A stretch of DNA of 47,366 nucleotides from a virus, in the IMG/VR virus record IMGVR_UViG_3300032285_002345, positions 1 to 47,366 of that record. One strand, written 5' to 3'. The translations under genes and the position numbers were made by a program. Every line of letters begins with the position of its first letter. Positions within the stretch are counted from its first letter, which is position 1. The notes beneath the pieces were generated by a model. It ran no database searches, was not told where the DNA came from, and was given only the letters and a program-made list of their open reading frames with translations. This document shows, piece by piece, positions 16,266 through 23,461 of the stretch.

Positions 16266-16868
16266 ATGCAGTATATTAATTTATTTCCAACACCCTTATA
16301 TGTTGATGATCAGATAGAATTAGCCAAAGAGATTTTACCAGTCGCAGAAGATTATATAAACCTATACAGCGAAAAGTATCTTGGTCAAGAAAAATATAGT
16401 TCAACATACAATGTTAATTCTGCTAGTTTAAAACAACAGAACGATCCAAGACTAAGAAACCTCAATACTTACATTAGGACTGCTTCAAGAAAATATTTTG
16501 ATGATAATTGTATAGATTCTACAGGTTGGAGTCTTAAACCATACTATTTGTTTAATAAAATAACATCTGGTGGTGCTCATCCAGTACATCCTCATCCTGG
16601 ATGTGTATTATCTGGATGTTTTTATTTAAAAGTTCCAAAAGATACTACACCAATAATTTTTAATGATCCAAGAGATTACTGGAAATTTATTCAATATCCA
16701 ATTAAATTTGGTGAAACCCGAGAAAAATATAACTTTCTTCCAGAGTATGTTATAAAACCACTGGAAGGAACATTTTTAATGTGGCCAAGTTGGTTAGAAC
16801 ACCAAGTTCCAACTAGTATTAGTGCGGAAGAAAGAATTTGTGTTGCGTTTAATCTTCAACCGAACTAA
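16266..16868 (+). CDS. 2OG-Fe(II) oxygenase-like protein (Oxy_5 type)
   Basis: A 200-residue protein. HPVHPHPGCVLSGCFYLKVP is the family signature (H-x-H-P), then IIFNDPRDYW, LEGTFLMWPSWLEHQVPT with the distal His, and ERICVAFNL with Arg. Ninth oxygenase-like gene in the window. A late octamer overlaps its stop codon. Confidence 0.7.
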   Translation: MQYINLFPTPLYVDDQIELAKEILPVAEDYINLYSEKYLGQEKYSSTYNVNSASLKQQNDPRLRNLNTYIRTASRKYFDDNCIDSTGWSLKPYYLFNKITSGGAHPVHPHPGCVLSGCFYLKVPKDTTPIIFNDPRDYWKFIQYPIKFGETREKYNFLPEYVIKPLEGTFLMWPSWLEHQVPTSISAEERICVAFNLQPN

Positions 16869-19191: not shown

Positions 19192-19200
19192 TTTTAAATT

Positions 19201-19240: not shown

Positions 19241-19939
19241 ATGCAAGCTGCTCAATTCGTTGAACAACTAGAGTTTCAAAATGAAGCGTTATTTCGTGCT
19301 TCTGAACTCCAAGTAAAATCATACTTTGACTCTAAGCCATCTAAGGCTGAATTAATCGACCATTTTAAAGGTCGCATGGTTAATGAGCGTATGAATATGG
19401 TAGAGATCTCTGCCCAAATCGCTGCTGCCCCAGCTGATGCTGACACTAGCGAACTTAATCTTTTGGCTAAACAAGCCCAAGATGAAGCCAAACACTTCCG
19501 TATGGTTAAGAATGTTATTGAACACCTTTCTGGTGAGCCATGTGATGTTGGTGCTGCTGTTGAAGAACACGCTGATCAACTAAGCACTAAAGGTGCTGCT
19601 CTTATCAAGAAATATGGTGGAGACAAAAATCCAGTAATGTTAGCATTGTATCAGTTGGTTGCTGAAGGTCGTGCTGCTCGTAACTGGAAAATGATGTCAG
19701 AGTGTATCGATGATCAATTCATTGCTAGCACTTATGCTAAGATTGCTAAAGATGAAAAATTCCATGCTTCTATTGGTCGTCATCAATTAGTTAAACTTTG
19801 CGAAGATCCAGTTGCTCAACAACAAATCGTTGAAGTTGCCAATGCTATGCGTAAAGACTTGTTCCTAATCACTTGTGCTAAATCAGGTATGAATGCCGAA
19901 AGCAAAGCGATTATGGAAGATGCTTACGGTCCACTATAA
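19241..19939 (+). CDS. Ferritin-like diiron protein, copy 1
   Basis: A 232-residue helical protein with a complete diiron ligand set: Glu in VNERMNMVE (E49 or E55), E82-x2-H85 in DEAKHFRM, E142 in VAEGRA, and E172-x2-H175 in DEKFHASIG. This is the four-helix-bundle pattern of ferritin-like oxidases and oxygenases such as PaaA/PaaC, MiaE or rubrerythrin relatives. No ferroxidase storage features are seen, so an oxidative enzyme is likelier. A paralogue follows 13 bases downstream, and the two may form a heterodimer. Substrate unknown; this pair is rare in phage context. Confidence 0.75.
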   Translation: MQAAQFVEQLEFQNEALFRASELQVKSYFDSKPSKAELIDHFKGRMVNERMNMVEISAQIAAAPADADTSELNLLAKQAQDEAKHFRMVKNVIEHLSGEPCDVGAAVEEHADQLSTKGAALIKKYGGDKNPVMLALYQLVAEGRAARNWKMMSECIDDQFIASTYAKIAKDEKFHASIGRHQLVKLCEDPVAQQQIVEVANAMRKDLFLITCAKSGMNAESKAIMEDAYGPL

Positions 19940-19952
19940 TCAAGGAACAATA

Positions 19953-20681
19953 ATGAAAAACTCTGTAGAATTCGTTAAAGAATTACGCAATACTTTTGAC
20001 ACTCTATATACAGTAGCTGACAAAACTACTCGTCAGTACTTTGCAACTAAGCCAAGCAATGATGAGTTGCTAGGTTATTTCAAAATCCGTTTGTTCAATG
20101 AACGCTGGAACATGGTTGAATTGGCTCAAGCCGTTGCTAACCAACCAATCGATACTCCAATCGAAGAAACTCAATTGCTTGCTAAACAAGCATATGACGA
20201 AGCAAACCATTTCCGTATGGTTAAAGAAGTTATTGAGCACATCTCTGGTGTTGAAGCAAATCTAGCAGAAATTGGTGCTACTCATGGCAAGAAAATGCCA
20301 AGTCAAGGTGTTTTCATTCTTGACAAGTATAATGCTCAAGGTGATGAATTAGTATTGGCTCTTTATCAATATTTGGCTGAAGGACGTGCTTCTGTAGTTT
20401 GGCAAGCAATGGCTGAGTCTATCGAAGACGAATATGTTTCTTCACGTTATGCAAAGATTGCTCGTGATGAAAGATTCCATAGCGAAATCGGTCGTTTGAA
20501 ATTAGAAAAACTTTGTACTACTCCAGAAGCCCAACAAAAGGCATTGGATATGGCTCAGAATTTCGTTTGGGATCTTTATGAAAATACTTGCTTGTCTATC
20601 GCTCAAGTTTCTGAAGAAGGGCAAGTTGCTATGAAACAAGCATATGGTCAACCTACTCGCGAGTTGTCTGTAGCAATCTAA
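19953..20681 (+). CDS. Ferritin-like diiron protein, copy 2
   Basis: A 242-residue paralogue of the gene before it, from the ATG at 19953 with AAGGAAC upstream. The same ligands are kept: Glu in FNERWNMVE (E50, E56), E83-x2-H86 in DEANHFRM, E143 in LAEGRA, and E173-x2-H176 in DERFHSEIG. The two copies share the KQA-DEA-HFRMVK and YAKIA-DE-FH blocks but differ elsewhere, so this is an old duplication rather than a recent repeat. Both keep every ligand, so neither looks like a dead subunit. Confidence 0.75.
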   Translation: MKNSVEFVKELRNTFDTLYTVADKTTRQYFATKPSNDELLGYFKIRLFNERWNMVELAQAVANQPIDTPIEETQLLAKQAYDEANHFRMVKEVIEHISGVEANLAEIGATHGKKMPSQGVFILDKYNAQGDELVLALYQYLAEGRASVVWQAMAESIEDEYVSSRYAKIARDERFHSEIGRLKLEKLCTTPEAQQKALDMAQNFVWDLYENTCLSIAQVSEEGQVAMKQAYGQPTRELSVAI

Positions 20682-20696
20682 TCTTTACAATTCGTT

Positions 20697-21245
20697 ATGA
20701 ATATATTGATTTCACAGAGGGATGTTCGCATCCCTCCATCACATTTCACTTTCGATGCTTTAGAGCGTAGTTGGTATCAACTATTTAAAAAACATAATTT
20801 GATTCCAGTACCAAACTTAGGTATAATAGATGAATCAATTGAGTTTGATTATTTGGTGTTGACTGGTGGTCCAGATAGTATTGAACGCCATACTACTGAA
20901 GATTTATTGTTTTACCATGCATATAAATTGAATAAACCCATATTTGGTTTTTGTCATGGAGCATTTGCTGTAAATGATTTAACTGGTGGTACAAATGGCT
21001 ATATAGAAGGTCATATTCAAGTTGATCATGAGATTATTATGGAAGGTAATATACATACCGTAAATAGTTATCATGGTCAGTCTATAGATAAACTTGGTCC
21101 AGAAATGGAAAAGGTTGCTATGGATCTAGATGGATATACAGAAGCATTTAAACATAAAACTCGAGAGATATATGGTATAGTCTGGCATCCCGAAAGGATG
21201 AAAAACCCAGTCTTACCAGCAAAGGTTTTCGAATTTTTGTTATAA
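20697..21245 (+). CDS. Class I glutamine amidotransferase / gamma-glutamyl hydrolase-like protein
   Basis: A 182-residue protein with the GATase triad: Cys86 in GFCHGAF, His164 and Glu166 in IVWHPER. VLTGGPDSI is the usual loop before the nucleophile elbow. A stand-alone domain without a synthetase partner suggests either a PuuD-like gamma-glutamyl hydrolase or an amidotransferase feeding an unknown acceptor. It directly follows the diiron pair, 15 bases apart, so a joint biosynthetic or modification route is possible but unproven. Confidence 0.8.
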   Translation: MNILISQRDVRIPPSHFTFDALERSWYQLFKKHNLIPVPNLGIIDESIEFDYLVLTGGPDSIERHTTEDLLFYHAYKLNKPIFGFCHGAFAVNDLTGGTNGYIEGHIQVDHEIIMEGNIHTVNSYHGQSIDKLGPEMEKVAMDLDGYTEAFKHKTREIYGIVWHPERMKNPVLPAKVFEFLL

Positions 21246-21317: not shown

Positions 21318-22280
21318 ATGAAAAAAATCCTAGTAGCGATGCTACTCATCCCAGCCCTTGCGTTCGCATGGGAACCCACAAAACCTATTACTGCTATCGT
21401 TGGATATGGTGTAGGATCAGGAAACGAAATTTCATTCAGAGGTGTTGCAGCCGAGATTGAAAAGACTCACCCAAAAGTAAATTTCTTAATTAAAAATGTT
21501 CCTGGAGCAGATGGTGTTCTTGGCGCAAATGAATTGGTAAAATCTGTTCCTGATGGACATACAATTCATATTAGTGGCAACCTTAGCACATACGTAACTA
21601 ATGAAGCGTTTGATACTCAAGCAATTCGTTACAAGTATGAAGATCTATATCCAATTCTGAGTATTGCTACATCTCCACAGGTTATTGTTGCTAGACCAAG
21701 TAGCAAAGTAAACACTGCCAAAGAATTTATTAAGTACATTCAGAAACCTGATCAACCAGTAAATATCGCTTATGGTAGTAATGTTCAGTTACTAATCTAC
21801 AATCTTGTTATGAATAAAGCAGGTGGTGATAGAGATATGGTTAAGCAAATTGGATACAAAGGTCCAATGCAAGCGTTAATGGATGTTGTTGGTGGTCACA
21901 CTGAATTTGGTATGATGCCACTCGCAGTTGCTGCACCGCAGATTAATGCAGGTAAGGTTAAACTTATTGCTGTTACTGGAGATAAACGACACCCAGCATA
22001 TCCAAATGTTCCAAAGATCGCTGAATACATTCCAGGTGTTGAGGTTATGGCTATGTGGAATGTGACTGTTCCAAAGGACACACCGAAAGAAGTTGTTGAT
22101 TGGTATGTTTCTATATTCTCCACTGCAATGAAAAGTGAAAATGTAAAGAAGTATTTTGCTGATAATTATATGACAGCAGCACCAGATTTAAATCCAGTAG
22201 ATGCAAAGAAAGTTATTGACAATCTTAGAGAAAGATATCTCCCAACTGCATTAGTGGTTAAGAAACAATTAGACAAGTAA
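21318..22280 (+). CDS. Bug/TctC-family periplasmic solute-binding protein
   Basis: A 320-residue protein. The first 17 residues (MKKILVAMLLIPALAFA) form a signal peptide, so the protein is exported to the host periplasm. The rest has Bug-family marks: PITAIVGYGVGSG, an NVPGADGVLGANELVKSVPD block, and GHTEFGMMPLAVAAPQINAGKVKLIAVTG split by the usual linkers, then YPNVPKIAEYIPG. The family binds carboxylates for tripartite tricarboxylate transporters and is expanded in Burkholderiales. No TctA or TctB genes are in the window, so it would act with host permeases or as a scavenging or decoy protein. Strong ribosome site AAAAGG. Confidence 0.88.
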   Translation: MKKILVAMLLIPALAFAWEPTKPITAIVGYGVGSGNEISFRGVAAEIEKTHPKVNFLIKNVPGADGVLGANELVKSVPDGHTIHISGNLSTYVTNEAFDTQAIRYKYEDLYPILSIATSPQVIVARPSSKVNTAKEFIKYIQKPDQPVNIAYGSNVQLLIYNLVMNKAGGDRDMVKQIGYKGPMQALMDVVGGHTEFGMMPLAVAAPQINAGKVKLIAVTGDKRHPAYPNVPKIAEYIPGVEVMAMWNVTVPKDTPKEVVDWYVSIFSTAMKSENVKKYFADNYMTAAPDLNPVDAKKVIDNLRERYLPTALVVKKQLDK

Positions 22281-22282
22281 AT

Positions 22283-22311
22283 TTGTCTTGTAAGAATAAA
22301 TAATGTATAAT
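22283..22311 (+). promoter_or_regulatory. Sigma-70-type promoter of the tmRNA gene
   Basis: TTGTCT at 22283-22288, 17 bp, TATAAT at 22306-22311; +1 near 22318 fits the start of the acceptor piece. AATAAATA at 22295-22302 inside the spacer could add late expression. Confidence 0.65.
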
Positions 22312-22317
22312 AGTGAT

Positions 22318-22612
22318 ACGGTTGTATGAAGCAACTAGAAAAGTGTTCTGGACGGGAGTTCGATTCTCCCCACCTCCACCAAAAGCATAATCGATATGCC
22401 CATAGCATATAGAGACATAAGAAACGTGATTATGCTTTTGATGGGGGTGACTAGGTTTCGACAGGGCAACAAGTACAGAAGTGGACAACTCATCAGAGAA
22501 GATGTAAAAACTAAAACAACGTAAACGCAAACGACGCACAGTTCGCATTAGCAGCCTAAACACTGCTTAGGGTTTCGGTAGGTTTCCTCGTAACAGAATA
22601 ACCTACCATTTA
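22318..22612 (+). ncRNA. ssrA: Circularly permuted (two-piece) tmRNA
   Basis: The gene holds both halves of tmRNA in swapped order. Acceptor piece first: T-arm GGGAG-TTCGATT-CTCCC (22354-22370), then CACCTCC and ACCA ending at 22381. A spacer with 11-12 bp arms (AAAGCATAATC/GATTATGCTTT) and an inner ATATGC/GCATAT hairpin follows, then the coding piece from 22443: GGGGGTG pairs with CACCTCC, leaving a G-U at the third pair, the alanine identity element. The tag is GCA at 22527 to TAA at 22559, encoding ANDAQFALAA, followed by a P5-like GCAG/CTGC stem and an 8-bp hairpin at 22577-22607. Function: rescue of stalled ribosomes and tagging for ClpXP. Exact 5' and 3' ends are estimates. Confidence 0.9.
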
Positions 22613-22631
22613 ACTTAAAAGGGTATTATAA

Positions 22632-23195
22632 ATGAAAATTAAAATTGTTCTTCTAGCAACTTTGCTTGCTTTCGCAGGTGTTGCTTCTGCTCAGTCTTCA
22701 GTAACGACAACTTGGGGTGTTCAACCTTTGGTTCCAAATACAGCACAAAATCATATCGTTAATTTTGCAGCAAAAACTGCTATCAATGATACATTCGCAG
22801 TAGACGCTGGTATTTATACCACAGTTGGTGATACAACAAATGCTGTTACAAATCGTTATGAAGCTGGTTTAACTGGCAAGTATGAATTAACTTCTGTTGT
22901 TGCTGCTGACCTACGTGTTGCTACTGGTATTAAACAAAAGTCTGGTGTAAATGATTTTACATACTATTCTTTGGAGCCAGGGGTTAATGCTAAGTTTGGT
23001 GATATTACTGCTCGTGTAGCATTGCGTTATCGTGATGCATACCAAGGTGATGCCAACGCTGACCAATCACGCACAATGCGTTATGCATTAGGTTACAATG
23101 TAACTGCAAAAGATAAAGTTACTGTTGGTTATGATCGCCTACGTGGTGATGGTGCTAATAATACTACTTACGTTGCTTACACTCGTTCGTTCTAA
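22632..23195 (+). CDS. Secreted outer-membrane beta-barrel protein
   Basis: A 187-residue protein: signal peptide MKIKIVLLATLLAFAGVASA, then alternating short amphipathic strands (DLRVATGIKQ, ITARVALRYRD, MRYALGYNVT, DKVTVGYDRL) and the C-terminal TYVAYTRSF ending in Phe, the signal for Bam-dependent insertion. About 8-10 strands would form a small barrel. AAAAGGG upstream. A phage-encoded outer-membrane protein may block receptor use or alter permeability (inference). It follows the tmRNA by about 20 bases and may share its transcript. Confidence 0.75.
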   Translation: MKIKIVLLATLLAFAGVASAQSSVTTTWGVQPLVPNTAQNHIVNFAAKTAINDTFAVDAGIYTTVGDTTNAVTNRYEAGLTGKYELTSVVAADLRVATGIKQKSGVNDFTYYSLEPGVNAKFGDITARVALRYRDAYQGDANADQSRTMRYALGYNVTAKDKVTVGYDRLRGDGANNTTYVAYTRSF

Positions 23196-23197
23196 TT

Positions 23198-23461
23198 ATG
23201 GAAATTAAGCCACTGAGAAAAATGGTTTTGGTCGCTGAAAATGCAGTTGACCAAACCACTGAGTCTGGAATTATTTTAGAAGGAACTACTTCTAATCGCG
23301 ATTCTAAAACAGGCACAGTATTAGCAATAGGTTCTGAAGTTACCGCAGTTAATGTTGGTGATAAAATTTATTTGGAATGGAATAAGGGTCAAGTCGTTAA
23401 GATTGGTGATGCTCAACGTGTGATGATCAAAGAAGAATTTATTGTTGCAGTGGTTGATTGA
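23198..23461 (+). CDS. groES: GroES-like co-chaperonin
   Basis: An 87-residue protein: IKPLRKMVLVAENAVDQTTE with a mobile-loop region ESGIILEGTTS, then TGTVLAIGSEV and VGDKIYLEW, the Cpn10 fold order. It would cap host GroEL and help capsid protein folding, as T4 gp31 does by a different sequence. One-base overlap with the next gene. Confidence 0.85.
   Translation: MEIKPLRKMVLVAENAVDQTTESGIILEGTTSNRDSKTGTVLAIGSEVTAVNVGDKIYLEWNKGQVVKIGDAQRVMIKEEFIVAVVD

Follow-up and report, generated by a model that had tools for sequence, protein, structure and literature searches.

What might a phage gain from two ferritin-like diiron proteins encoded in tandem beside a stand-alone amidotransferase? The question is raised by the window—the whole stretch of 47,366 nucleotides analyzed here—which is a fragment of a T4-like phage carrying baseplate and tail genes. 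An earlier note, made from the sequence alone, had read two divergent paralogues and an amidotransferase at this locus. The three plus-strand genes were confirmed at the coordinates given there, with a spacing of 15 bp between the second paralogue and the amidotransferase, and the paralogues, 41–42% identical, are indeed divergent. They are referred to below as F1 and F2 (members of family F) and the amidotransferase as GAT; a gene for a solute receptor, TctC, lies downstream.

19241..19939, plus strand: F1, predicted ferritin-like diiron protein, 232 aa; ligands E49, E82xxH85, E142, E172xxH175
19953..20681, plus strand: F2, paralogue of F1, 242 aa; the same six ligands; from an ancient separate clade, in which it is the copy adjoining GAT
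20697..21245, plus strand: GAT, class I amidotransferase/Peptidase_C26-like hydrolase, 182 aa; triad C86, H164, E166
21318..22280, plus strand: TctC-type periplasmic solute receptor; probably accessory; a frequent neighbor of F-GAT, present at 63 of the 120 F loci

The mechanical open reading frame of F2 runs from 19893; the start at 19953, preceded by AAGGAACAA, is preferred. A late octamer had also been proposed to precede the genes, and this did not hold. The octamer TATAAATA is not enriched: the window has three exact copies where chance would give 6.1. One falls within the gene upstream (18852), one sits at the stop codon of GAT (21241), and the third is on the opposite strand. No exact TATAAATA stands directly upstream of F1, the nearest sequence being the weak match TACTAAATATA at 19200. 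A late promoter for F1-F2-GAT was rejected for want of enrichment of the octamer.

A tmRNA on the plus strand (22269–22650) overlaps the end of the TctC gene. The Rfam beta_tmRNA model matches 22269–22613 with 136 bits, a permuted tmRNA model matches 22320–22559, and ARAGORN places the gene at 22289–22650 with the tag ANDAQFALAA; this betaproteobacterial tmRNA suggests a betaproteobacterial host. The same phage encodes a GroES-type co-chaperonin (23198–23461) and a 2OG-Fe(II) oxygenase (16266–16868).

Family F: ligands, fold and relationships

F carries the E, ExxH, E, ExxH set of the ferritin-like diiron-carboxylate superfamily. Both F1 and F2 keep all the ligands, as had been read from the letters, and so do 32 of 32 rows of alignment A1; across about 130 distinct members, each ligand (E49, E82-x2-H85, E142 and E172-x2-H175 in F1 numbering) is 99–100% conserved. 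Because hundreds of homologues retain it, the pattern lies far beyond chance. AlphaFold2, run on a 32-row alignment, predicts an all-helical protein (pLDDT 95.9, pTM 0.91) whose four long core helices are consistent with a four-helix bundle. The best Foldseek matches of this model are diiron enzymes with ferritin-like or haem-oxygenase-like folds, namely cyanobacterial aldehyde-deformylating oxygenase, CADD, UndA and PaaA/PaaC, at probability 1.00 but with E-values no better than 0.005; since these E-values are weak, the fold assigns a superfamily and not a reaction. The aldehyde-deformylating oxygenase has a ligand set with two ExxH motifs, comparable to that of F; the CADD-type arrangement differs from it.

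No Pfam family scores above its cut-off for F1 or F2. Their weak matches are nearly all to ferritin-like families (DUF455, PaaA_PaaC, AurF and Ferritin_2), and the same ferritin-like families lead across 32 F members, always at weak E-values. Membership was rejected for PaaA/PaaC (15.5 bits against a cut-off of 28.5 for PF05138, and 21.9 against 280 for TIGR02156), for AurF (PF11583; F2 14.0 against 29.6) and for DUF455 (PF04305; F1 21.3 and F2 16.5 against 34.3). The rubrerythrin and MiaE models match neither F1 nor F2; among the 32 members, Rubrerythrin matches one (E 0.011) and MiaE none.

The likeness to PaaA/PaaC, subunits of phenylacetyl-CoA epoxidase, extends to organization, as these too are a paralogous pair of ferritin-like diiron subunits, and there is a weak, sub-threshold profile match as well as a weak fold match. 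However, F1 and F2 both retain all ligands, and PaaB/D/E partners were not noticed among the neighbors. By sequence, the nearest cellular relatives of F are DUF455-like ferritin-like proteins, in which the six ligands line up. The remote bacterial homologues recovered (L127–L132) are DUF455-like, the two that were scanned exceeding the DUF455 cut-off, and five of them, aligned as a group against F with hhalign, match at a probability of 94% (E 1e-7) with the ligands in register. In contrast to F, the DUF455-like relatives recovered have no such GAT as a neighbor. Because F falls below the Pfam cut-offs, shares the fold matches and aligns in register with the remote DUF455-like profile, we place it, on profiles and predicted structure, as a distinct family within the ferritin-like superfamily. 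The ferritin-like diiron reading of the earlier note is supported; F would contain iron and would most likely act as an oxygenase.

In the tree of the family, the F2-type sequences group together in a separate clade (support 100/99), comprising the F2 of the window and copies from L007, L009, L011, L119, L144, L147 and L154; single copies and first copies fall outside it. A second, independent tandem pair occurs in L035, L036 and L042, and most phages carry a single F. Recurrence of the tandem pair among mostly single-copy phages implies that two copies are repeatedly useful and not required. An F1-F2 heterodimer is possible but not required, as most phages have a single F. In six loci (L149, L153, L154, L155, L161 and L165) the order TctC-F-TctC-F-GAT gives each F its own TctC ahead of it, an arrangement that hints at a receptor suited to each enzyme.

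The amidotransferase and its linkage to F

The window GAT scores above the cut-off for both Peptidase_C26 (62.8 bits) and GATase (43.6 bits) and has the Cys-His-Glu triad of this class. The triad had been described as intact, and it proved invariant in 100 distinct sequences. The best NCBIfam match is to gamma-glutamyl-CDP-amidate hydrolase (NF045546), which has the best E-value in 23 of the 23 GATs scanned; the window GAT scores 73.4 bits against a cut-off of 250 for that equivalog. A match to GMP-synthase subunit A was found as well. The R-x3-E and VNSxH motifs, however, are common to GAT and the C26-type structure 3fij and are not shared by that subunit. By these motifs GAT resembles gamma-glutamyl hydrolases (Peptidase_C26) more closely than ammonia-feeding subunits, which favors hydrolysis of a gamma-glutamyl amide over the feeding of ammonia to a synthetase. 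PuuD-type Peptidase_C26 hydrolases and gamma-glutamyl-CDP-amidate hydrolase share the triad, the R/E pair and VNSxH with GAT. GAT differs from them in its low NF045546 score, in having C-x-G followed by a residue other than Gln (CHGAF) in most members, and in the linked gene, here a diiron protein.

Of the 120 loci seeded with F, 110 also carry GAT. Conversely, 79 of the 80 loci seeded with GAT carry F, the sole exception (L145) having just 1.7 kb available upstream; these loci are the best 80 matches to the window GAT, so that the count holds for that GAT clade and not for all phage C26 proteins. Among the ten F loci without GAT, contig ends cut L046 and L071, and the contig of L018 holds another F with GAT. 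GAT is missing from L012, L015, L053, L115–L117 and both bacterial chromosomal copies, and F can therefore work without GAT. F-seeded and GAT-seeded loci overlap, and removal of duplicates left 99 distinct F-GAT pairs, with a median F-GAT gap of 4 bp: 61 are directly adjacent, 18 divergent, 11 separated by a DUF6552-type small gene, and the remaining 9 have other genes between, giving eight gene orders in all. A pair that has survived repeated rearrangement is unlike independent cargo. Co-occurrence, which might have shown the genes to be independent, instead supports F and GAT as a functional set.

Distribution and neighboring genes

The F1 query matched 328 IMG/VR stretches, of which 80 were kept, and the F2 query matched 45. 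A tblastn search of F2 against 50,697 annotated phage records returned no matches, in keeping with the earlier note, which knew of no described phage with this combination; a GAT search of annotated phage records found only five relatives, all distant (28–32% identity). Close relatives of F number four among 84,980 cellular species genomes. One (L125) comes from a 24-kb contig that carries several phage-like genes. Another (L123) is on a Nitrosopumilaceae MAG contig that matches phage locus L086 at about 90% identity over its left part but has no phage matches over its right part, and this contig is probably chimeric. The remaining two (L124 and L126) come from long contigs belonging to Massilia atriviolacea and Janthinobacterium sp. 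UMAB-56, in clusters that hold F, a cupin, the sulfotransferase-like genes ST2 and ST1 and a methyltransferase, with no GAT nearby. These two clusters also include a sulfatase-superfamily protein, a 2'-5' RNA ligase-like protein and an NMT1-type ABC transporter. The carriers of F are hundreds of uncultured aquatic T4-like viruses, and its distribution is phage-restricted.

Neighbors were counted over the 120 F loci by de novo clustering and profile searches:

Class I methyltransferase: 94 of 120
Sulfotransferase-like ST1: 84 of 120
TctC receptor: 63 of 120
2OG-oxygenase-like protein: 55 of 120
Sulfotransferase-like ST2: 50 of 120
DUF6552: 42 of 120
TctA permease: 35 of 120
APS-kinase-like, cupin and DUF2061-like genes: fewer loci

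ST1 and the methyltransferase are absent from G001 and G002, near-complete relatives of the window of about 164 kb, and the minimal set in the window's clade is therefore F1-F2-GAT-TctC. The sulfotransferase-like families match no solved structure by sequence, and a fold search with one of them gave weak matches only, including sulfotransferases and P-loop kinases; the basis for the designation "sulfotransferase-like" is consequently its motifs plus a single weak Pfam match.

Possible functions of the cassette

F1/F2 and GAT may form the conserved core of a metabolic cassette carried by the virus. What the data show directly is the six ligands, the confidently predicted all-helical fold, the intact triad, the near-obligate linkage and the phage-restricted distribution. 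F would then represent a new diiron-carboxylate enzyme family, its members most likely being oxygenases that act on a small molecule in the host cytoplasm; in many phages, this substrate would probably be captured by the phage TctC receptor (and TctA permease). GAT would be a C26-type amidohydrolase dedicated to this pathway, where it would most likely cleave a gamma-glutamyl amide, either of the substrate or of the product. What we say of reactions, here and below, we infer. In the Puu putrescine route, a gamma-glutamylated amine is oxidized and the glutamyl group is then removed; the proposed order of F and then GAT can be likened to it. The gamma-glutamyl ligase would have to be supplied by the host, and none of the glutamine-synthetase type was found in 30 phage records. 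TctC, through which import may proceed, is missing from about half of the F loci, which counts against the proposal. We tentatively propose that F oxidizes a small molecule, possibly imported via TctC, and that within this route GAT takes off a gamma-glutamyl group; the account is plausible but falls somewhat short of probable.

The main rival to a gamma-glutamyl amidase is a GAT that acts as an ammonia-producing glutaminase for an ATP-dependent synthetase, the substrate or product of F being amidated; we consider this a possible but unlikely reading. It adds a partner to the suggestion of the earlier note that the set could oxidize a metabolite, base or amino acid and transfer ammonia. The partner would be an AsnB-like PP-loop ATPase in some phages, and elsewhere a host enzyme or F itself. 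Such an ATPase, with WSGGIDST and a later G-DQLF motif, appears as 40 frames in F-GAT loci (for example, L005:6751-7752 and L010:11065-12108). In three of the closest relatives (L003, L005 and L010) its gene separates F2 from GAT, and many other loci have it upstream of TctC-F-GAT, a placement that argues for ammonia supply, as does the match of GAT to GMP-synthase subunit A. The arrangement recalls the two-subunit GMP synthetase (GuaAa and the PP-loop GuaAb), in that a stand-alone class I GATase has a PP-loop ATPase nearby in some phages. But in the F-GAT cluster the PP-loop gene is optional, being present in just 9 of 45 records searched whole (one a marginal match) and absent from the window and near-complete G001; Pfam does not recognize the family of the PP-loop protein; and the motifs of GAT differ from those of the synthetase subunit, standing closer to C26 hydrolases. 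OM43 phages carry GATase-amidoligase gene sets whose GATase is of PF13522, with no mention of a ferritin (PMC10580990). These sets resemble F-GAT as a phage-borne amidotransferase with a partner enzyme, but their GATase, partnered with an amidoligase, is of a different family from GAT.

The NF045546 match raises the thought of phosphoramidate decoration, like the O-methyl phosphoramidate route of Campylobacter, a pathway described in a review (PMC6429109). GAT would be the gamma-glutamyl-CDP-amidate hydrolase and the APS-kinase-like gene a CDP-amidate kinase, while the methyltransferase and sulfotransferase-like genes, all present in clusters, would finish and transfer the group. We regard this as very improbable because the upstream enzymes are missing: the glutamine-kinase-type domain PF01326 occurs in 0 of 35 records, and no nucleotidyltransferase (PF12804) scores over its cut-off in 30 records. 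A full phosphoramidate pathway was rejected on these two absences. Further, the window GAT falls far below the NF045546 cut-off, and the near-complete relatives of the window lack both the sulfotransferase-like gene and the methyltransferase. The established O-methyl phosphoramidate pathway is not known to include a diiron protein.

Two further explanations would dissolve the link between oxidation and amide chemistry. F could be an iron or oxidative-stress protein of the ferritin, rubrerythrin or Mn-catalase type, with GAT adjacent for some other reason; its ligand set is common to ferritin-like proteins in general, and the closest structural match among viral proteins, with a weak E-value, is a rubrerythrin-like protein from Acidovorax phage ACP17. 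Yet the linkage to GAT is maintained through eight gene orders, F is often linked to biosynthetic genes and importers, and Ferritin_2 and rubrerythrin match few F members, with weak E-values; a stress protein is accordingly quite improbable. F1, F2 and GAT might instead be unrelated cargo sharing an insertion site, and the region is indeed one of variable cargo, with phoH-like and lysozyme-like genes close by. The reciprocal linkage counts and the short gap, maintained while other cargo comes and goes, leave this explanation strongly disfavored and scarcely credible.

A stronger version of the coupling would make F and GAT a two-component enzyme, a diiron oxygenase with a class I amidotransferase, in which oxidation is coupled to amide or ammonia chemistry. 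Such a pairing has no known cellular counterpart; aquatic T4-like phages would employ it during infection to build or degrade a small molecule. In this full form we think the idea rather unlikely.

Significance

The enzyme superfamilies involved are known. A search of papers, family libraries and phage records turned up no description of family F, of its pairing with GAT or of the phage cassette, and the papers covered contained nothing relevant on phage diiron proteins with amidotransferases or on DUF455. There is a real chance that the F-GAT pairing is a new two-component enzyme. F itself is a probable metal-enzyme family, common in uncultured aquatic phages and almost absent from sequenced bacteria, that has apparently been overlooked. 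Its near-obligate partner provides a concrete handle on its function, and the two Oxalobacteraceae carriers make work in culturable bacteria possible. The near-obligate pairing points to a shared chemical step that these phages bring into their hosts; if F modifies a metabolite, this would be a new kind of chemistry imposed by viruses on freshwater and marine bacteria.
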